From NCBI RefSeq assembly GCF_016865425.1, contig NZ_AP023355.1, positions 2,974,198-3,038,197 on the forward strand: 64,000 nt of DNA, written 5' to 3'. A model generated the notes under the pieces. The model was not told where the DNA came from, searched no databases, and worked only from the letters and a program-made list of their open reading frames with translations. The stretch comes from Actinocatenispora thailandica. GTDB lineage: Bacteria > Actinomycetota > Actinomycetes > Mycobacteriales > Micromonosporaceae. Below, piece by piece: positions 45,410 to 56,547 of this stretch (positions within the stretch are counted from its first letter, which is position 1; each line of letters begins with the position of its first letter). Both the position numbers and the translations under genes were made by a program.

Positions 45410-46783
<1,374 letters not shown>

Positions 46784-46978: not shown

Positions 46979-48445
46979 ATGCCGAAGTTGCAGTCGAAAG
47001 AAGATCAGAGTTTCACCGCGGAGCTCGATCTGGCGACCTTCGGGCAGCGCTTGAGGCACCTGCGCGGCCGGGCCGGGCTGACCCTCGCCGAGCTCGGCCA
47101 GCGGGTCGGCCGGTCCCCGTCCGCGCTGTCGATGCTGGAGAACGGTCGGGTCGAGCCGAAGCTGTCACTGCTCACCGCGCTCGCCGGGGAACTCGGCTGC
47201 GCCCTGGACGACCTGCTGTCCAGCGAGCCGCCCACCCGGCGCGCCCAACTCGAACTCGCCCTCGACGCCGCCCAGCGCGACCCGCTGTACGCGGCGCTCG
47301 GGCTGCCCCGGCTGCAGGTCTCCCGCCGGGTGCCCACCGATGTCCTGGAGCACCTCGTCGGGCTGTACGGGGAGTTGAAGCGGCGGGACGCCCGCCCGAC
47401 CGGTACCCCGGAGGAGGCGCGGATCGCGAACGCCGCGCTGCGCACCGAGATGCGCGAGCGGGACAACTACTTCGCCGGCATCGAGCGGCTCGCCGCCCAG
47501 TCCCTGGAGGCTGCCGGGTACGGCGGCGGCGCGGTCTCCGAGGGCCTGCTGCTGGCGCTGGTGTCGCACGCCGGTTTCACCCTGCGTTACGTCGCGGACC
47601 TGCCGCACTCGGTGCGGTCGGTGACCGATCTGCGGCATCGGCGCATCTACCTGGCCAGGGCGAGCTTCGGGATGCACACCCCGCGCACCGTGCTGCTGCA
47701 GACCCTCGGTCACTTCCTGCTCGGTCACGACCAGCCGCGCGACTTCGCCGACTTCCTGCGACAGCGGGTGGAGGCGAACTACTTCGCCGCCGCGGTGCTG
47801 GTCCCGGAGTCGGCCGCGGTGCCCTACCTGCGGCAGGCGAAGAAGGCGCGCGACCTGTCGGTGGAGGACCTGCGGGACGTGTTCGCCACCTCGTACGAGA
47901 TGGCCGCGCACCGCTTCACCAACCTCGCCACCCGGCACCTGGACCTGCGCTGCCACTTCACCAAGAACGACGAGTCCGGGATCATCTACAAGGCGTACGC
48001 CAACGACGGGCTGGTGTTCCCGACCGACGCCACCGGCGCGATCGAGGGCCAGCGGATGTGCCGGTACTGGTCGGGCCGGCAGGTGTTCGCGGCGCCGGAC
48101 CGGTTCTCGATCCACTACCAGTACACCGACAAACCGAACGGCACGCACTGGTGCGCGGCGTACGTCGATCCGAGCCGGGACCGCAACTTCGCCATCACGC
48201 TCGGCGTCCGGTACGCCGACTCGCGCTGGTTCCGCGGGCGGGAGACGACGAACACGGCGAGGTCGGCCTGCCCGGACGGGGAGTGCTGCCGGCGGCCACC
48301 GGCGGAGCTGTCCCGGCGCTGGGACCAGCTCGCCTGGCCGTCGGCCCGGGCGCACTCGCACATCCTCGCCGCGCTGCCGCCCGGCACGTTCCCCGGCGTC
48401 GACGAGACCGACGTGTACACCTTCCTGGACCGGCACGCGGAGTAG
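46979..48445 (+). CDS. ramB: RamB/ScfR-type regulator (XRE HTH + IrrE-like + DUF2083)
   Basis: The 488-residue protein has an N-terminal XRE helix-turn-helix ([20 protein letters not shown]), a middle IrrE/ImmA-like domain and a C-terminal DUF2083/ScfR region ([20 protein letters not shown] ... [10 protein letters not shown]). The IrrE zinc motif is lost (TLGHFLLGH, no HExxH), so it is a sensor rather than a protease. RamB proteins control acetate and propionate metabolism, including aceA. Its position divergent from aceA supports that role. Leaderless start inferred at the ATG 46979. Confidence 0.85.
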
Positions 48446-48763
48446 ACGGCCCGCCGTACGGGGAAAAGGACGAAGTTCAACGATTCGGCCGAGCGTGGAT
48501 TATCACTACAATTGGTGTGACTCTTGTTACTGAGCAGACACATGCCCGTACTGCCTGGTAACCGACCCGGGCGGGTGTAAGTTCCGAACCGGATCTACGG
48601 GGCCGTAGGTTACGGGCCCGTAGGGGATGTCCGCAGCACCGATTCGGGTGGCGCGAGGGTTCCCGACCGCTCGGCTGTGTTCGAGTGCGGCACAAGTCGA
48701 TACGACCGCAGACACCGCGCCAACCTGCGACTTCCGCTTGCAGGCGGTTCGTTGGGAGGTCAC
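48446..48763 (+). other. 318-bp upstream region of the cyclohexanecarboxyl-CoA-type operon
   Basis: No gene is visible. The region is less G+C-rich than its flanks, notably around 48485-48545. It holds the two tandem palindromes at 48596-48622, an isolated CCGTACGG at 48454-48461 built from the same half-sites, and the ribosome site GGGAGG at about 48755-48760. I could not fix a promoter with confidence; GATACG at about 48699 is one candidate -10. Confidence 0.55.
48596..48622. promoter_or_regulatory. Two tandem TACGG-N2-CCGTA palindromes
   Basis: TACGGGGCCGTA (48596-48607) and TACGGGCCCGTA (48611-48622) are 12-bp palindromes with the same half-sites, 15 bp centre to centre. The first has imperfect central bases (GG), and C/G pairs flank it at 48595 and 48608. 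Tandem identical half-sites suggest cooperative binding by a regulator dimer. They lie about 140 bases upstream of the operon's first gene. No regulator gene is adjacent except the RamB-like protein. Confidence 0.65.
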
Positions 48764-51700
48764 GTGCATCTGTCAGTCGCCGGGACGAGCGAGCCACTGA
48801 CCGGTGAGGTCGTCGTTCCGAACTCCAAGTACCACGCGCACCGGGCGCTGATCCTGGCCTCGCTCGCACCCGGTACCAGCACCGTGCGCGGTCTGTCCGA
48901 CGCGCACCACGTGCACTACACCGTGGAGCTGCTGCGCGCGCTCGGGGTCCGCGTCGAGATCGGCGGGGACACCTTCGTGGTGCACGGCGGCGGATACCAC
49001 CCGGTGCGCGAGACGGTGACCGCCGGCAGCTCCGGTACCACGCTGTACTTCATGATCGGGCTCGCCTCGCTCGCCGACGCGCCGGTCACCGTCACCGGCC
49101 AGAAGTACTTCCAGCGCCGCCCCGTCGCGCCGCTGCTGCGGGCGCTGACCCAGATGGGAGTGAGCCTGTCGTCCGCCGACGGCTGCCCGCCGATCCAGGT
49201 ACAGCCGAAGCGGCCGACCGGTGGCCGGGTGCGGATCCCCGGCACGCTGTCCCAGTGGATCTCCGGGCTGGTGCTGCTCGCGCCGTTCGCCACCGGCCGG
49301 ACCGTCATCGAGGTGGAGGGCGAACTCAACGAACGCACCTACCTGAGGCTCACCGTCGACATGATGCGCCGGTTCGGGCTGGCCGTCGACGTCGCCGACG
49401 ACTGGCGCACCTTCACGATCGAGCCGAACCAGCAGGCGGTACCGGCCACCGTGACGTTGCCGCCGGACATCGGCTCGGCCGCGTTCGGCCTGGCCGCCGC
49501 CGCGATCCACCCCTCCGACGTGCTGTTCCACGGGATGACCAGCACCGCCGCGGCGGACACCGACCACCCCGAGGCCGACCTGCTGTCCATCGTGGACCGG
49601 ATGGGCCTGACGCTGGACTACGACGCCGCCGCCGGTGCGGTCCGGGTCCGGCACGACGGCGCACCGCTGAACGCCACCGAGGTCGACTGCCGGGACCTGC
49701 CCGACATGCTGCCGGTGCTGTCCACGATGGCCACCTTCGCCCGCGGGACCACCGTGCTGCGCAACGTCGGGCACGCGCGGCTCAAGGAGTCCGACCGGGC
49801 GTCGGCGATGCTGCAGCTCAACCGGATGGGCGGCCGGCTGGAACTGGCCGAGGCGACCCTGCGGGTGCACGGGGTACCGGGGCTGACCGGCGCGAGCATG
49901 TCGTCGTTCAACGACCATCGGGTACTGATGTCGCTCGCGGTCGCCGCCTCCCGCGCGGCGGGCCGGTCCAGCCTCACCTACCCCAACGCGTACCGGATCT
50001 CCTACCCGCAGTTCCTCACCGCGATGAACGGCATCGGGATCGAGATGTCGGTCGCCGACGGCAGCGGTACCGGCCGGCCCCGCCGCTCCCGCAGCCGCAA
50101 GGCGCCCGCCTCCGCGGAGGTACCGATCAGCGAATGGGTGCAGCGGTGGGCCACCGAACGGCCGCACGCCACGGCGGTGGTCGACGTGCGGCCCGGTGCG
50201 ATGCACACGCACAGCTGGCAGGAGCTGATGGAGCAGGCCGACCGCGTTGCCACGCTGCTGCTCGATCTCGGCGTCGAGCGCGGTGACCGGGTCGCCTTCC
50301 AACTGCCGAACTGGTTCGAGTTCGTGGTGATCGCGCTCGCGACGCTGCGCATCGGTGCGGTCTGCTGCCCGCTGATGCCGATCTTCCGGGAACGTGAGAT
50401 GGCCTTCGCGCTGCGCCGGTCGCGGGCCAAGGTGCTGTTCGTGCCGGACACCTTCCGCGGCCGGGACCACCGCCAGGAGGTGGCGGCGCTGCTCGGCGCC
50501 GGGATGTCCGGCAGCGTGGACGACGCCGCGCCGGGCGCCGGTACCGGTCTCGACGCGCTGACCGACGTGATCGTGGTACCGGCCAGCGACGCGAATGCGG
50601 ACCGGCTGCGGCTGCCCGAGGGCGGCAGCGCCGCCTGGCACAGCTACCCCGAGCTGTTGCGGGACGTGACGATCGACGTGACCCGGCTCGGTGCACAGCG
50701 GCCCGGCGCGGACGCGACGGCGCAGCTGCTGTTCACCTCCGGTACCTCCGGGGAGCCGAAGGCGGCGCTGATGCGGGGCCGTTCGCTGACCACCGCCGCG
50801 CTGATGGAGGTGCGGCACCTGGGGCTGGGCCCGGACGACTGCGTCTACATCCCGTCGCCGCTCGCGCACCAGACCGGCTTCCTGTACGGGATGTGGCTGG
50901 CGTTCGTGCTCGGCGCCCCGCAGGTGATCCAGGGCCAGTGGTCCTCGTCCCGGGCGCTGCGGGCGATGCGTGACCACCGGGTCAGCTTCGTCCAGGCGGC
51001 CACACCGTTCCTCGCCGATCTGGTGAAGGGCGTCGAGGACGGCGACCGGGCACCGGAGTCGCTGCGCGTCTTCGTGGCCACCGGCGCCGCGGTACCGCGC
51101 GGCCTGGCCGAGCGCGCCACCCGGATCCTCGGTACCACGGTGTGCGGCGCCTGGGGCACCACCGAGACGTGCCTGGGTACGCTCGCCGCGCCAGGCGACG
51201 AGCCGGCGAAGACCTGGGGTACCGACGGTCGGGCGCTCGACGGCATCACCATCCGCATCGTCGACGACGAGGGGCGGCAGCTGCCGGCCGGTGTCGAGGG
51301 CAACTTCGAGCTGAAGAGCCCGACGTTCTTCGAGGGATACCTGGACCATCCGGAGTGGACCGCGGACGCGTTCACCGGCGACGGTTTCTTCCGCACCGGG
51401 GATCTGGGCATCATCGACGAGTCCGGGTACATCCGCATCACCGGCCGGGTCAAGGACGTGATCAACCGGGGCGGGGAGAAGGTGCCGGTGTCGGAGATCG
51501 AGCAGTTGCTCTACCAGCATCCGTCCGTGGCGGAGGCCGCCATCGTCGCGATGCCCGACCCCCGGCTGGGCGAGCGGGCCTGCGCGTTCGTCGTCCTGGC
51601 GCCGCACGCCGACCTCGACTTCGGCGCGATGCAGAAGTACCTCAACACCCACCAGGTGGCGAAGACGTACTGGCCGGAGCGGCTGGAGCTGGTCGACGAG

Positions 51701-51790
51701 CTGCCCCGCAACCCGACCGGCAAGATCCAGAAGTTCCTGCTGCGCGAGCGGGCCCGCGCGCTGCGCCCGGACCGGGACGGTGCCCGGTGA
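48764..51790 (+). CDS. EPSP-synthase-fold domain fused to acyl-CoA ligase (AnsJ-AnsK / PlmJK-like)
   Basis: The 1008-residue protein has two domains. Residues 1-430 have the EPSP-synthase fold (PNSKYHAHRALILASL; QRRPVAPLL; LKESDR 340-345; NDHR 383-386). K22, R119, D314, E342, R345 and R386 match catalytic or PEP-binding sites of E. coli AroA, but S23 is Tyr, N94 is Ser, R100 is Tyr and K411 is Ile. Residues 455-1000 are an ANL ligase: LLFTSGTSGEPKAAL, GAWGTTETC, FFRTGDLG, GRVKDVINRGGEKV and Lys in NPTGKIQK. In ansatrienin and phoslactomycin pathways such proteins act early in conversion of shikimate to cyclohexanecarboxyl-CoA. GTG start behind GGGAGG. Confidence 0.88.
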   Translation: MHLSVAGTSEPLTGEVVVPNSKYHAHRALILASLAPGTSTVRGLSDAHHVHYTVELLRALGVRVEIGGDTFVVHGGGYHPVRETVTAGSSGTTLYFMIGLASLADAPVTVTGQKYFQRRPVAPLLRALTQMGVSLSSADGCPPIQVQPKRPTGGRVRIPGTLSQWISGLVLLAPFATGRTVIEVEGELNERTYLRLTVDMMRRFGLAVDVADDWRTFTIEPNQQAVPATVTLPPDIGSAAFGLAAAAIHPSDVLFHGMTSTAAADTDHPEADLLSIVDRMGLTLDYDAAAGAVRVRHDGAPLNATEVDCRDLPDMLPVLSTMATFARGTTVLRNVGHARLKESDRASAMLQLNRMGGRLELAEATLRVHGVPGLTGASMSSFNDHRVLMSLAVAASRAAGRSSLTYPNAYRISYPQFLTAMNGIGIEMSVADGSGTGRPRRSRSRKAPASAEVPISEWVQRWATERPHATAVVDVRPGAMHTHSWQELMEQADRVATLLLDLGVERGDRVAFQLPNWFEFVVIALATLRIGAVCCPLMPIFREREMAFALRRSRAKVLFVPDTFRGRDHRQEVAALLGAGMSGSVDDAAPGAGTGLDALTDVIVVPASDANADRLRLPEGGSAAWHSYPELLRDVTIDVTRLGAQRPGADATAQLLFTSGTSGEPKAALMRGRSLTTAALMEVRHLGLGPDDCVYIPSPLAHQTGFLYGMWLAFVLGAPQVIQGQWSSSRALRAMRDHRVSFVQAATPFLADLVKGVEDGDRAPESLRVFVATGAAVPRGLAERATRILGTTVCGAWGTTETCLGTLAAPGDEPAKTWGTDGRALDGITIRIVDDEGRQLPAGVEGNFELKSPTFFEGYLDHPEWTADAFTGDGFFRTGDLGIIDESGYIRITGRVKDVINRGGEKVPVSEIEQLLYQHPSVAEAAIVAMPDPRLGERACAFVVLAPHADLDFGAMQKYLNTHQVAKTYWPERLELVDELPRNPTGKIQKFLLRERARALRPDRDGAR

Positions 51791-51831
51791 CGCCGCCCAC
51801 CAGCCAGCCCCCTGCGACGAGGAGTACGACC

Positions 51832-53022
51832 GTGACCCAGAACGAACTCCCGACCACCACCGGTGTCGTGGACGAGACCGAGTTCGCCGCGCTCAAGGCC
51901 GAGGTGGCCGACTACGTGGCCGGGCCGGCCGAGCGGTGGGCGCAGCGCATCGAACGCGACGCCGAGGTGCCGGACGCGGTGTTCGCCGAACTGCGGGACC
52001 GCGGCTACCTGTCGCTTGCGGCGCCGGTCGAGTACGGCGGGCGCGGGGTGCCGTTCTCCCGGTACCTGGAGCTGATGGAGCTGTTCTCCATGTCGCACGC
52101 CTCGATCCGGATGATCGTGCACGTGGTGAACGGCATCTGGCGGGCGATCGACCAGTTCGCCACCGACGAGCAGCGCAAGCGGTTCGTGTTGCCGGTGATC
52201 GCCGGGGAGAAGCGGGCCGCGTTCACGCTGACCGAGCCGACCGCCGGTACCGGCGCCGACCTGCGGTGCAGCGTGACGCGGGAGGGCGACACGTACTTCC
52301 TGTCCGGGGAGAAGCACCTGATCACGTTCGGGGTGAACTGCGACTGGTGGCTGCTGTTCGCCCGACTGGCCGGGACCACCGGCAAGGACGGCACGGTCGC
52401 GCTGATGGTCGACCGCGACGCCGCGGGTGTCACGGTCGAGGAGATGGCCGAGACGATGGGGGTGCGGGGCACCGACCACGCGCACCTGACGTTCGACCGT
52501 ACCCCGGTGCCGGTGGGCAACCGGCTCGGCGAGGAGGGTCGCGGGCTGGAGGTCGCGCTCGGCGGGTTCCTGCAGCCGAGCCGGATCTCGGTGGCGATGA
52601 GCTGCGTGGGGCTGGCCCGGCGGGCGCACGAGCTGGCCATGGCGCACGCGCTGCGGCGGGAGACCTTCGGCAAGAAGCTCGCGCAACGGCAGGCGATCAG
52701 CTTCGCGATCGCCGAGAACGCCGCCGACATCGAGGCGGCCCGCGCGCTGACCCTGCACGCCGCGCGGGAGTGGGAGGCCGGCAGCCCGCAGTCGGCCGTA
52801 CTGTCCTCGGCGTCGAAGCTGACCGCGGTCGACATGCTCACCCGGGTCACCGACCGGGCGTTGCAGATCCACGGCGGCATCGGTTACTGGTCGACCAGCC
52901 CGATCGAACGCGTGTACCGGGATGCCCGGGCGCAGCGGTTCGAGGAGGGCACCAACGAGATCCAGAAGACCGTCATCGCGCGCGAGGTGCTGCGCGAGTT
53001 CGCGGAGGGGAGCGCGGAATGA
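51832..53022 (+). CDS. Acyl-CoA dehydrogenase (AnsL/PlmL-like)
   Basis: The 396-residue flavoprotein has the family motifs 'FTLTEPTAGTGADL', 'GEKHLITFGVNCDWWLLF', 'GLARRAHELAMAHALRRETFGKKL' with FAD-binding residues, and 'QIHGGIGYWSTSPIERVYRDAR'. The catalytic Glu is expected in FEEGTNEIQK. As second gene of the operon it should oxidise or dehydrogenate a ring-carboxyl-CoA intermediate. It starts with GTG behind GAGGAG, 41 bases after the ligase stop; an earlier GTG at 51787 overlaps that stop and is less likely. Confidence 0.88.
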   Translation: MTQNELPTTTGVVDETEFAALKAEVADYVAGPAERWAQRIERDAEVPDAVFAELRDRGYLSLAAPVEYGGRGVPFSRYLELMELFSMSHASIRMIVHVVNGIWRAIDQFATDEQRKRFVLPVIAGEKRAAFTLTEPTAGTGADLRCSVTREGDTYFLSGEKHLITFGVNCDWWLLFARLAGTTGKDGTVALMVDRDAAGVTVEEMAETMGVRGTDHAHLTFDRTPVPVGNRLGEEGRGLEVALGGFLQPSRISVAMSCVGLARRAHELAMAHALRRETFGKKLAQRQAISFAIAENAADIEAARALTLHAAREWEAGSPQSAVLSSASKLTAVDMLTRVTDRALQIHGGIGYWSTSPIERVYRDARAQRFEEGTNEIQKTVIAREVLREFAEGSAE

Positions 53023-53095
53023 GCGCGTCTGCGCGAGTGAACCGGGAAGGCCACGGGTGGTGTCTCGCCGGCCTCGTGGTGCGAGAGGAGCGCCG

Positions 53096-53968
53096 ATGAA
53101 CCAGCGTCCGGGGGCGTACTCGCGGCCCAGCGAGTTCGCCGACACCGTCACCGTCATCACCGGAGCCTCGCGGGGCATCGGCCGGTCGCTCGCGCTGTCG
53201 CTGGCCGCGGCCGGCGGTACCGTGGTGATCAACTACAAGCGCAACACCGAGGCGGCGGAGAAGACGCTCGCCGAGGTGGAGGGGTTGGGCGGCCGCGGGA
53301 TCACCGTCGCCGCCGACGTGGAGGAGCCGGACGACATCGACCGGCTGTTCGACGTGGTGCAGAGCACCTACGGCACGATCCACCACTTCGTGTCGAACGC
53401 GGCGGCCAGCTCGTTCAAGCCGATCATGGAGCTGAAGGCGCACCACCTGGACCGGTCGTACGCGATGAACGTCCGGGCACTGGTGCTCGGCGCGCAGCGG
53501 GCGGTGCCGCTGATGACCGGCGGCGGTCGGATCGTCACCCTCTCCAGCTACGGCTCGATCCGGGCCTACCCCAGCTACGCCAACCTCGGTTCGGCGAAGG
53601 CCGCCATCGAGGCGTGGGTGCGCTACATGGCGGTCGAGTTCGCGCCGTACGGGATCAACGTCAACGCGGTCAACGGCGGCATCATCGAGTCCGACTCCTC
53701 GGCGTACTTCTACGACGTACCCGGGATGCCGCCGCTCGACGACGTGCTGCGGCTGGTGCCCAAGCGGCGGATGGGTTCGGTCCGGGAGGTCTCCGACGTG
53801 GTGCTGTTCCTGCTGTCGGAGGCGTCCGGCTACATCACCGGCCAGTCGATCGTGGTGGACGGCGGGCTGTCCACCATCGCGCCGCCGTTTCACGCCGACA
53901 CCACGCCGCCGCTGCGGCTGCCGGAGGTGCCGCCGGCCGCGCCGTCCCGCCGGCAGCACGATGGTTGA
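53096..53968 (+). CDS. chcA: SDR enoyl reductase, 1-cyclohexenylcarbonyl-CoA reductase (ChcA-like)
   Basis: The 290-residue SDR has TGASRGIG, the NAA(A) motif in FVSNAAASSF and an active site 'SSYGSIRAYPSYANLGSAK'. Tyr and Lys are separated by six residues, the enoyl-reductase form, not the usual Y-x3-K of ketoreductases. Segments such as 'NAAASSFKPIMELKAHHLDRS' and 'GYITGQSIVVDGGLS' agree with what I remember of Streptomyces collinus ChcA. ChcA reduces cyclohexenylcarbonyl-CoA intermediates with NADPH. GAGAGGAG precedes the ATG. The symbol is by similarity and context. Confidence 0.82.
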   Translation: MNQRPGAYSRPSEFADTVTVITGASRGIGRSLALSLAAAGGTVVINYKRNTEAAEKTLAEVEGLGGRGITVAADVEEPDDIDRLFDVVQSTYGTIHHFVSNAAASSFKPIMELKAHHLDRSYAMNVRALVLGAQRAVPLMTGGGRIVTLSSYGSIRAYPSYANLGSAKAAIEAWVRYMAVEFAPYGINVNAVNGGIIESDSSAYFYDVPGMPPLDDVLRLVPKRRMGSVREVSDVVLFLLSEASGYITGQSIVVDGGLSTIAPPFHADTTPPLRLPEVPPAAPSRRQHDG

Positions 53969-56249
53969 CCGACCGGCCGGGCTGCGCCGGGTGCTCAGCC
54001 CGGTGGCGCTCGGCGGCCTGGCGCTGCCGCACCGGGTGGTGATGGGCTCGATGCACCTGGGCATCGAGGACCGCGACGACGGTGGTGCCGCGCTCGCCGC
54101 GTTCTACGCCGCGCGGGCGGCCGGCGGTGCCGGGCTGATCGTCACCGGCGGGTCGGCGGTCAGCCGGGTCGGCGCCGGCGGGGTGCACTACAGCTTCGTC
54201 AACGAGCCCGCCGACGCGCCCCGGCTGGCCCGGGTCGCGGCGGCGGTACACACGGCCGGTGGGTTGATCGCGCTGCAGCTGTTCCACGCCGGCCGCTACG
54301 CCTTCGCCGCCTCGTTCGGGCTGCAGCCGGTGGCGCCGTCGGCGGTACCGAGCCGGTTCTCGCCCGATGAGCCGCGGGCGCTGACCGGCGCCGAGGTGGC
54401 GGCGACGATCGACGACTTCGGCCGTGCGGCGGCGACCGCGCGGCGGCTCGGATTCGACGCGGTGGAGTTGATGGGTTCGGAAGGCTACCTGCTCAACGAG
54501 TTCACCTCGCCGGTGACCAACCACCGCGACGACGAGTGGGGCGGCGACCCGGCGCGGCGCCGCGCCTTCCCGCTGGCCGTACTGGCCGCCGTCCGGGCCG
54601 CCGCCGGTACCGACTTTCCGGTGATCTACCGGCTCTCCGGCGCCGACCTGATGGACGGCGCACCGGACGAGGACGAGGTGCTGGCGCTGGCGACGGCGCT
54701 CGCCGGGGCCGGCGCCGCGGCGCTCAACGTCGGCATCGGCTGGCACGAGTCCCGGGTACCGACCGTGCAGGCGCTCGTGCCGCCCGGCACCTGGGCGCCG
54801 TACGCGGCGCGGATCCGGGCCGCGGTCGACGGCGTGGTGCCGGTGATCGCCTCGAACCGGATCAACCGGCTCGCCCAGGCCGAACAGCTGCTCGCCGACG
54901 GCGCCGCGGACCTGGTCAGCCTGGCCCGGCCGTTCCTCGCCGACCCGGAACTGATCGCGCGCTCGCGCGCCGGCCGGCCGGTCAACGTCTGCATCGGCTG
55001 CAACCAGGCCTGCATCGACCGTTCGCTCACCGACGAGGCGGTCTCCTGCATGGTCAACCCGTCCGCCGGCCACGAACAAGACCTGTTCGTCGCCGGCTCG
55101 GGCGCCCCCGGCAGCGCCGGCGCGAGTGCCGGCGGCCCCGCCCCTGCCGCCCCCGGCTCCGCCCCTGGCGCCCCCGGGCCCTCCGGCGCTGCCGGCTCCG
55201 GAGGGCCCGGCGCCACGGGCCGCCGCCGGTACGCGGTGATCGGCGCCGGGCCGGCAGGGCTCGCCGCGGCACGCGCCCTGGCGAGCGCCGGTGCGCGCGT
55301 CGTGCTGTACGAGGCGGGGGCGGCGCCGGGCGGGCAGTTCCGGCTGGCCAGGCTGGTGCCCGGCAAGGCGGACTACGGCGCCACGATCGAGTACTACGCC
55401 GCCGAACTCGCCGCGCTCGGCGTCGAGCTGCGACTCGGCCACCCGGTCGGCCCGGGCGACCGAGCCGAGCTGGCCGGCTGCGCCGGCATCGTGCTGGCGA
55501 CCGGTGTCGTGCCCCGGCCGGTCGAGCTGCCCGGCGCCGACGGCCCGAACGTCCTGACCTATCCGGAGGCGTTCGCCGCCGCCGACCGGCTCGGCGACCG
55601 GGTCGTCGTGGTCGGCGGCGGCGGCATCGCGGTCGACCTGGCGCACCTGCTCAGCCACGGGGCGACCGACGGCGACGAGCGGGATCGGTTCCGCGCCGAG
55701 CACGGCCTGGCCGAGCGGCCGGTCCCGGTGACCGGCGGCCGCCAGGTGACGCTGCTTCGCCGCGGCCCCCGGATCGGTGCCGGGATCGGGCGAACGACCC
55801 GCTGGACGCTGCTGGCCGCGCTGCGTCGCCGCGGCGTGCTGCTGCGCACCGGTGTGCGCTACGAGCGGATCACGCCGGAGGGCGTCGTACTGGCCGGCGG
55901 CGACGGGCCGGAGCTGGTCGGCGCCGACACCGTGGTGCTCGCCGCCGGGCAGGTACCGGCCGATGCGCTGCGGCCGATGCTCGCCGGGCTGGCCGTGCCG
56001 TACCGGGTGATCGGCGGTGCGGCGGACGGCGCGGTCGACGCCGTCACCGCCTTCGCCGCCGGCGCGGCGGCCCGCGAGCTCCTGCGCGACGCCGATCCGT
56101 CGCCACGCCCTGAGCACCCGCCGGGCCGCCGCACGGCGGCACCGCGACCTCGGGGCCGCGGCGGGGGCCGACGATGGCGCTGCCCGGTTCTCAGCGGTCG
56201 AGGAGTGCCGCGAGGGTCTTCGGTGCGACCGTCCGGTACGCCTCGGTGA
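53961..56249 (+). CDS. 2,4-dienoyl-CoA reductase-like flavoprotein (AnsM/PlmM-like)
   Basis: The 762-residue protein has an old-yellow-enzyme barrel (1-335) with the FadH catalytic Tyr (MGSEGYLLNEF, Y176) and His (GIGWHESR, H262). A 4Fe-4S site (C344, C347, C351, C363) and FAD/NAD domains (VIGAGPAGLAAARAL; VVVGGGGIAVDLA) follow. FadH enzymes reduce conjugated dienoyl-CoAs, as needed for the ring dienes of the pathway. A 43-residue Ala/Gly/Pro linker (378-420) is unusual. The ATG overlaps the ChcA-like gene by 8 bases. The last 45 residues are Arg/Pro-rich and run into the convergent gene by 59 bases. Confidence 0.87.
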   Translation: MVDRPAGLRRVLSPVALGGLALPHRVVMGSMHLGIEDRDDGGAALAAFYAARAAGGAGLIVTGGSAVSRVGAGGVHYSFVNEPADAPRLARVAAAVHTAGGLIALQLFHAGRYAFAASFGLQPVAPSAVPSRFSPDEPRALTGAEVAATIDDFGRAAATARRLGFDAVELMGSEGYLLNEFTSPVTNHRDDEWGGDPARRRAFPLAVLAAVRAAAGTDFPVIYRLSGADLMDGAPDEDEVLALATALAGAGAAALNVGIGWHESRVPTVQALVPPGTWAPYAARIRAAVDGVVPVIASNRINRLAQAEQLLADGAADLVSLARPFLADPELIARSRAGRPVNVCIGCNQACIDRSLTDEAVSCMVNPSAGHEQDLFVAGSGAPGSAGASAGGPAPAAPGSAPGAPGPSGAAGSGGPGATGRRRYAVIGAGPAGLAAARALASAGARVVLYEAGAAPGGQFRLARLVPGKADYGATIEYYAAELAALGVELRLGHPVGPGDRAELAGCAGIVLATGVVPRPVELPGADGPNVLTYPEAFAAADRLGDRVVVVGGGGIAVDLAHLLSHGATDGDERDRFRAEHGLAERPVPVTGGRQVTLLRRGPRIGAGIGRTTRWTLLAALRRRGVLLRTGVRYERITPEGVVLAGGDGPELVGADTVVLAAGQVPADALRPMLAGLAVPYRVIGGAADGAVDAVTAFAAGAAARELLRDADPSPRPEHPPGRRTAAPRPRGRGGGRRWRCPVLSGRGVPRGSSVRPSGTPR

Positions 56250-56547
56250 CGAGTTCGCGAACCTGCTCCCAGTCGGTGTCGACGTCGAGGTACACGCCGA
56301 GCCAGCCGCGGTGGCCGACGTAGGGCGGCCGGTAGAACCGGTCCGGTTCGGCGCCGATCAGCGCCTGCTGCTCGCCCTGCGGTGCCGCGCACCAGAACCC
56401 GAGCCGGTCGTCGTGATGGTGGTCGGCGTACATGACGAACAGCCGGCGGTCGCGAACGAACCAGCACGGCTCACCGTGGCTGACCCGTTCGGTGACTTCC
56501 GGCAGGTCCAGGCACGCCTGGCGCAGCCGGAGCAGCGGATCGCTCAT
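56191..56547 (-). CDS. MmcQ/YjbR family protein
   Basis: The 118-residue protein has the family pattern: 'LDLPEVTERVSHGEPCWFVRDRRLFVMY' at the start and 'RPPYVGHRGWLGVYLD' later. YjbR proteins are small and double-wing-like and their role is not established. CACACT ends six bases before the ATG, so it may be leaderless. Its 3' end overlaps the convergent flavoprotein gene by 59 bases. Confidence 0.8.
   Translation of the reverse strand: MSDPLLRLRQACLDLPEVTERVSHGEPCWFVRDRRLFVMYADHHHDDRLGFWCAAPQGEQQALIGAEPDRFYRPPYVGHRGWLGVYLDVDTDWEQVRELVTEAYRTVAPKTLAALLDR

Follow-up and report, generated by a model that had tools for sequence, protein, structure and literature searches.

A putative cyclohexanecarboxyl-CoA operon of Actinocatenispora thailandica and its likely ketosynthase–ligase partner at a distant locus

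What does an ordinary bacterium do with a fully reduced shikimate ring? Cyclohexanecarboxyl-CoA (CHC-CoA) is known mainly from a few Streptomyces antibiotics, from doramectin engineering and from Alicyclobacillus lipids. A sequence-only reading of a 64,000-nucleotide stretch of the Actinocatenispora thailandica genome (hereafter the window), which belongs to a single 7.43 Mb contig, had proposed that four co-directional genes at positions 48764–56249 form a stand-alone cassette for making CHC-CoA from shikimate. Open reading frames and Pfam domains agree with this layout: all four frames lie on the + strand without internal stops, and the overlap of the last two, re-measured, is 8 bases.

The first gene, JK (48764..51790, 1008 aa; the frame opens at 48677), encodes an EPSP-synthase-like domain (J; EPSP_synthase PF00275, 5e-80) fused to an AMP-forming acyl-CoA ligase (K; AMP-binding PF00501, 7e-70, and AMP-binding_C PF13193). 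It is followed by L (51832..53022, 396 aa), an acyl-CoA dehydrogenase with PF02771, PF02770 and PF00441, all of them domains of this family, and an RFEEGT motif; an alternative GTG start at 51787 would overlap the JK stop. Next comes chcA (53096..53968, 290 aa), an SDR-type enoyl-CoA reductase whose YxxxxxxK active site has the spacing of enoyl reductases and for which both the closest NCBIfam model and the closest PDB structure are FabL enoyl reductase. The last gene, M (53961..56249, 762 aa), encodes a FadH/2,4-dienoyl-CoA-reductase-like flavoenzyme of the OYE type (PF00724, OYE/FMN; PF07992, Pyr_redox_2) with a CxxCxxxC-x11-C iron-sulphur cluster motif and 2,4-dienoyl-CoA reductase 1ps9 as its top PDB match (6e-134). 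Within Actinocatenispora, M changes fastest (about 86% identity, against 92–95% for the other genes); a Pro/Gly/Ala-rich linker joins its two halves, and its C-terminal tail has diverged. For the ligase half of JK, the best NCBIfam model is TIGR03208, cyclohexanecarboxylate-CoA ligase, at 477 bits and thus below the 792-bit cut-off, and its nearest named relatives are AliA cyclohexanecarboxylate-CoA ligases from plasmid records (40–42% identity). These plasmid records contain AMP ligases only and no JK fusion covering more than 80% of the query.

The J domain shares the fold and most catalytic residues of EPSP synthase (AroA), yet it is altered at the residues that hold the 3-phosphate. In the alignment K22, R27, R124, D313, E341, R344 and R386 (E. 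coli numbering) are retained, whereas R100 is lost, one of S169/S170 is deleted and S197 is aligned with Glu, so that J does not carry the full set of residues that bind shikimate 3-phosphate and PEP in AroA. Several separate EPSPS-family genes are present in the genome, two of which outscore J against the EPSPS family. The altered 3-phosphate residues would fit shikimate, not shikimate 3-phosphate, as the substrate of J. Following the pathways proposed for related systems, J would dehydrate shikimate and K would activate the product to a CoA ester, after which L, ChcA and M would carry out the dehydration and the enoyl and dienoyl reductions that lead to CHC-CoA. A ChcB-type isomerase would have to be supplied from an unlinked gene elsewhere in the genome, among whose eight crotonase-family matches none can be assigned to ChcB.

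A J-domain profile scan of 84,980 species yielded 262 relatives, and the best 80 loci were read. All 80 start with J and K in one direction and keep the same gene order, which is complete (J-K-L-chcA-M) in 53; of the others, 10 are without M and 6 without chcA, and the remaining 11 are shorter, 6 of these at a contig end. Six Streptomyces loci among them carry AHBA-type genes directly upstream, a sign of ansatrienin-type clusters; among these genes Pfam confirms an A-PCP-TE protein and a class II DAHP synthase, the remainder being read by eye. The ChcA of the window is 64–66% identical to its orthologues in these six loci, and JK, L and ChcA are found there in the same order at 57–68% identity; for one of them (L097) the values are 68% for J, 57% for K, 63% for L, 64% for ChcA and 53% for M. 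Other copies stand next to modular polyketide synthase (PKS) genes; in Actinoplanes the neighbour is an AT-first PKS. The ansatrienin-type or CHC-PKS identity of such clusters is based on their adjacent genes, not on deposited Ans or Plm proteins.

Since the same genes recur in the same order in 53 of the best 80 loci, including AHBA and PKS clusters, a CHC-CoA operon is the best reading of the window's genes, which show the full set in sequence: EPSPS-like domain and AMP ligase fused, then acyl-CoA dehydrogenase, ChcA-type reductase and FadH-like M. CHC-CoA synthesis is supported by the cluster synteny together with the proximity of the ligase half to cyclohexanecarboxylate-CoA ligase and the residue changes in J. 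We thus consider it very probable, from these comparisons, that the four genes form an operon of the ansJ-K-L-chcA-M / plmJK-L-M kind. The best relatives belong to the same pathway and their genes stay together, so that neither of the two outcomes named beforehand as contrary, best matches in other pathways or genes scattered in relatives, has come about. An introduced CHC-CoA gene cassette works in Streptomyces avermitilis (PMC4581413).

The two model systems differ from the window in their setting. The ansatrienin genes ansJ-K-L, chcA and ansM share gene families and order with it, but ansatrienin-type operons sit inside an AHBA/NRPS cluster, and the two such genomes tested have no FabF-like ketosynthase of the kind described below, whereas the window operon is isolated and has one, with a ligase, elsewhere in the genome. 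A fused JK with the same downstream genes is likewise found in phoslactomycin (plmJK/plmL/plmM) and in further PKS clusters primed by CHC (L073/L156, L114, L157); the operons of these loci directly adjoin PKS genes, and the window has none in or near it. The PKS that makes ansatrienin starts from AHBA, and the cyclohexanecarbonyl group is attached to the D-alanine side chain as an acyl group; as a polyketide starter, CHC-CoA is known only from phoslactomycin and similar compounds. The earlier statement that both pathways use it as a starter is therefore inaccurate for ansatrienin and holds for phoslactomycin.

Several further settings were seen among the relatives. Ten loci from Micromonosporaceae, Streptosporangiaceae and a Pseudonocardiales MAG share a conserved cluster directly upstream of JK that comprises a PaaA/PaaC-like protein, a protein that lacks any Pfam match but looks like a radical SAM enzyme (CxxxCxxC-like motif), an ACP standing alone and an SDR; here JK is usually followed by L-chcA-M and then by ABC transporters or ketosynthases, with an AMP ligase nearby in most, and this cluster probably makes an unknown CHC-derived natural product. 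Four loci of one actinomycetotal family (f18) have a diverged operon with J and K separate, L and chcA present and M absent, and in three of the four a LarA-like protein precedes it and an MFS transporter follows. In six loci of Arthrobacter and relatives the operon lacks M and stands behind thiolase-like and FadB-type multifunctional-like genes, in some cases with an MFS transporter after it. Another six, two from Sinomonas (L101, L111) and four from Arthrobacter (L142, L146, L151, L160), hold the operon between ribosomal-protein genes and a tuf-like gene (read by eye); the Sinomonas operon keeps chcA and M, in a genome without a CHC-type ketosynthase.

In A. thailandica the operon lies in a variable slot. 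Its left border is a ramB-like regulator gene (46979..48445, + strand; HTH_31 and IrrE-like domains), beyond which aceA, encoding isocitrate lyase (45410..46783, − strand; PF00463), lies outside the system, and its right border is yjbR (56191..56547, − strand; PF04237). Pfam bears out these neighbours as first named, as well as a cell-wall peptidase of the NlpC/P60 type. JK occurs in 13 of 301 genomes of the Micromonosporaceae, the family to which Actinocatenispora belongs. Three of four Actinocatenispora genomes have the operon, each time between ramB and yjbR, with JK 94–95% identical in the two congeners, one of which is Actinocatenispora comari. In the fourth (G406), aceA, ramB (89% identical, same place) and yjbR are kept and the operon is absent. 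Because two unrelated genes, of the ketopantoate-reductase and 5'-nucleotidase types, there fill the slot between the same flanks, the site of the operon is a variable one, at which the operon is gained or lost as a whole.

Is the operon then self-sufficient? Locally it stands alone, as had been proposed, but genome-wide it does not: a co-inherited pair of genes lies 578 kb away, and the suggestion that the product might serve an unlinked pathway was correct in kind. The pair consists of a FabF-like ketosynthase (KS; contig positions 2441334–2442803) and, beside it, an acyl ligase (LIG; 2442994–2444625). Orthologues of this KS, 62–75% identical to it, stand beside the operon in 20 of the best 80 loci, downstream of M in Streptomyces, Microbacterium, Acidothermus and Streptosporangiaceae and divergently upstream in several MAGs; in seven Streptomyces loci LIG follows the linked KS. 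Unexpectedly, the unlinked KS of A. thailandica (at 2.441 Mb) falls within the clade of operon-linked KS proteins in a KS tree. Its catalytic cysteine is intact in the alignment (ALACAS), and it scores just under the FabF equivalog cut-off. LIG is adjacent to KS at every unlinked KS locus read, and its orthologues are 56–74% identical to the A. thailandica protein, against at most 31% for other ligases. Seven loci, mostly Eremiobacterota MAGs, have a different KS clade directly upstream of the operon, an apparent parallel KS–operon pairing in another phylum.

The distribution of KS follows that of the operon. All three operon-positive Actinocatenispora have an orthologue (85–100% identity), and G406 has none (best match 46%). 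Fifteen genomes have an operon that stands alone locally, with no KS linked to it; 13 of them (the three Actinocatenispora and ten others) carry KS, the exceptions being two Sinomonas, compared with none of eight operon-negative Micromonosporaceae (G406 and seven others; p = 9e-5, shared ancestry ignored). Nor was the orthologue found in any of the four tested genomes in which the operon is part of a PKS or ansatrienin-type cluster. A search of 120 genomes of an independent family, the Micrococcaceae, with one chimeric J+KS query, in which KS orthologues were set off by an identity gap of 69% versus 44%, gave 10 genomes with both, 2 with KS only, 1 with a diverged J only and 107 with neither (p = 6e-12, shared ancestry ignored). 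The positives span several separate lineages. The partnership thus has its counter-cases, namely the two Sinomonas with operon and no KS, the two Micrococcaceae with KS and no detected operon, and the one with a diverged J and no KS.

Strong evidence that the two loci serve one pathway comes from the movement of chcA between them. In Arthrobacter luteolus, Arthrobacter sp. Edens01 and two Cellulomonas the operon is a chcA-less JK-L-M, and an SDR 58–59% identical to the window ChcA stands in the KS-LIG locus instead; in these four genomes chcA has left the operon for the KS-LIG locus. The comparison covers these four of the six chcA-less loci, the other two being L146 and L160. Across the three Actinocatenispora species, dN/dS is 0.12–0.31 for each operon gene, for KS and for LIG, and the operon genes are under purifying selection. 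Since gene order is moreover kept in dozens of genomes, the operon is not a chance arrangement; it is real and functional-looking. Altogether, we hold with high confidence that KS-LIG is the partner of the operon, which is half of a two-locus system, and the joint reading, CHC-CoA operon plus KS-LIG partner, is likely.

We thus propose that CHC-CoA in Actinocatenispora would not be fed to a neighbouring PKS but handed to the FabF-type KS and LIG 578 kb away. KS would most likely join the cyclohexyl acyl group to malonyl-ACP in a condensation, after which extension by the housekeeping fatty acid cycle would give an omega-cyclohexyl acyl chain, the simplest product to expect; LIG may load the acid on ACP, recycle free acid or activate the finished chain. 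That an omega-cyclohexyl acyl chain is the end product is a tentative proposal to which we give somewhat less than even weight. Published profiles of Arthrobacter and Cellulomonas reportedly list anteiso and iso acids, not omega-cyclohexyl acids, which makes a role as bulk membrane lipid doubtful. Our literature search returned no lipid data for Actinocatenispora.

On a rival account, FabH alone would bring CHC-CoA into the ordinary fatty acid synthase, which would then make omega-cyclohexyl fatty acids, with KS-LIG incidental. The genome does have FabH beside FabF and ACP genes, Sinomonas carries the operon without KS, and fatty acids of this type count among the major lipids of Alicyclobacillus (PMC3035248) and are also known from Curtobacterium pusillum (PMC3426160). 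This account is nevertheless unlikely, as it leaves unexplained why one specific KS and one specific ligase lie beside the operon, or are inherited along with it, in Streptomyces, Arthrobacter, Cellulomonas, Nakamurella and Actinocatenispora. A shikimate-derived ring as fatty acid primer, as in Alicyclobacillus and C. pusillum, would be the most likely use here. The literature searched on omega-cyclohexyl synthesis yielded no description of a dedicated KS-LIG pair. The same holds for stand-alone CHC operons with a ketosynthase partner, none of which turned up in a literature search that reached few subscription papers.

CHC-CoA might also prime or acylate the product of a PKS/NRPS cluster elsewhere in the genome. 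The window itself contains no ketosynthase, in agreement with its first reading as PKS-free, and so does not have the makeup of a PKS-starter cluster. Three such remote loci exist: a KS-AT-aminotransferase locus at 685 kb, one with A-PCP, KS and KS-AT-KR-DH-ACP at 5.4 Mb, and an NRPS-PKS at 1.5 Mb. None of the three has a recognisable CHC loading module, in particular no counterpart of the AT-ACP module in the Actinoplanes CHC-type PKS (L073); moreover, the KS partner that Actinocatenispora possesses is absent from the four tested genomes in which a PKS or ansatrienin-type cluster houses the operon, and we regard this use as quite improbable. Least probable of all is a catabolic operon that breaks down cyclic or steroid-like acids by ligase, dehydrogenase, SDR and dienoyl reductase, as the likeness of K to AliA of cyclohexane carboxylate degradation and the adjoining isocitrate lyase and RamB-like regulator might suggest, because catabolism would have no use for an EPSPS-like domain, the operon contains no hydratase or ring-cleavage genes (badK/H/I type), identical operons lie inside antibiotic-type clusters and the slot beside aceA is variable.

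The KS-partnered CHC-CoA operon also bears on the origin of the antibiotic genes. When the J domains were placed in a quick tree, the copies from ansatrienin and PKS clusters grouped together, nested among the Streptomyces copies with linked KS, and this one fast tree hints that the KS-associated operon may be the older and that antibiotic clusters took it over. The kind of operon is known; new are its setting, its co-inherited KS-LIG partner and its breadth outside antibiotic clusters. It is conceivable, at rather less than an even chance, that operon and KS-LIG make up an undescribed cyclohexyl metabolite or lipid pathway, other than that of polyketide antibiotics, which is widespread in Actinomycetota and has a related counterpart in Eremiobacterota, and from which the uses in ansatrienin and PKS clusters were derived later.

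In summary, the operon often lies far from any PKS, as in Actinocatenispora, Arthrobacter, Cellulomonas, Sinomonas, Nakamurella and Eremiobacterota MAGs; a specific ketosynthase and ligase accompany it in most of the actinobacterial genomes tested. This makes two questions testable, namely to what use ordinary bacteria put a fully reduced shikimate ring and from which source antibiotic clusters obtained their operon, and it supplies many natural operon variants for engineering. The two-locus pairing may thus point to an uncharted cyclohexane-containing product of many bacteria.
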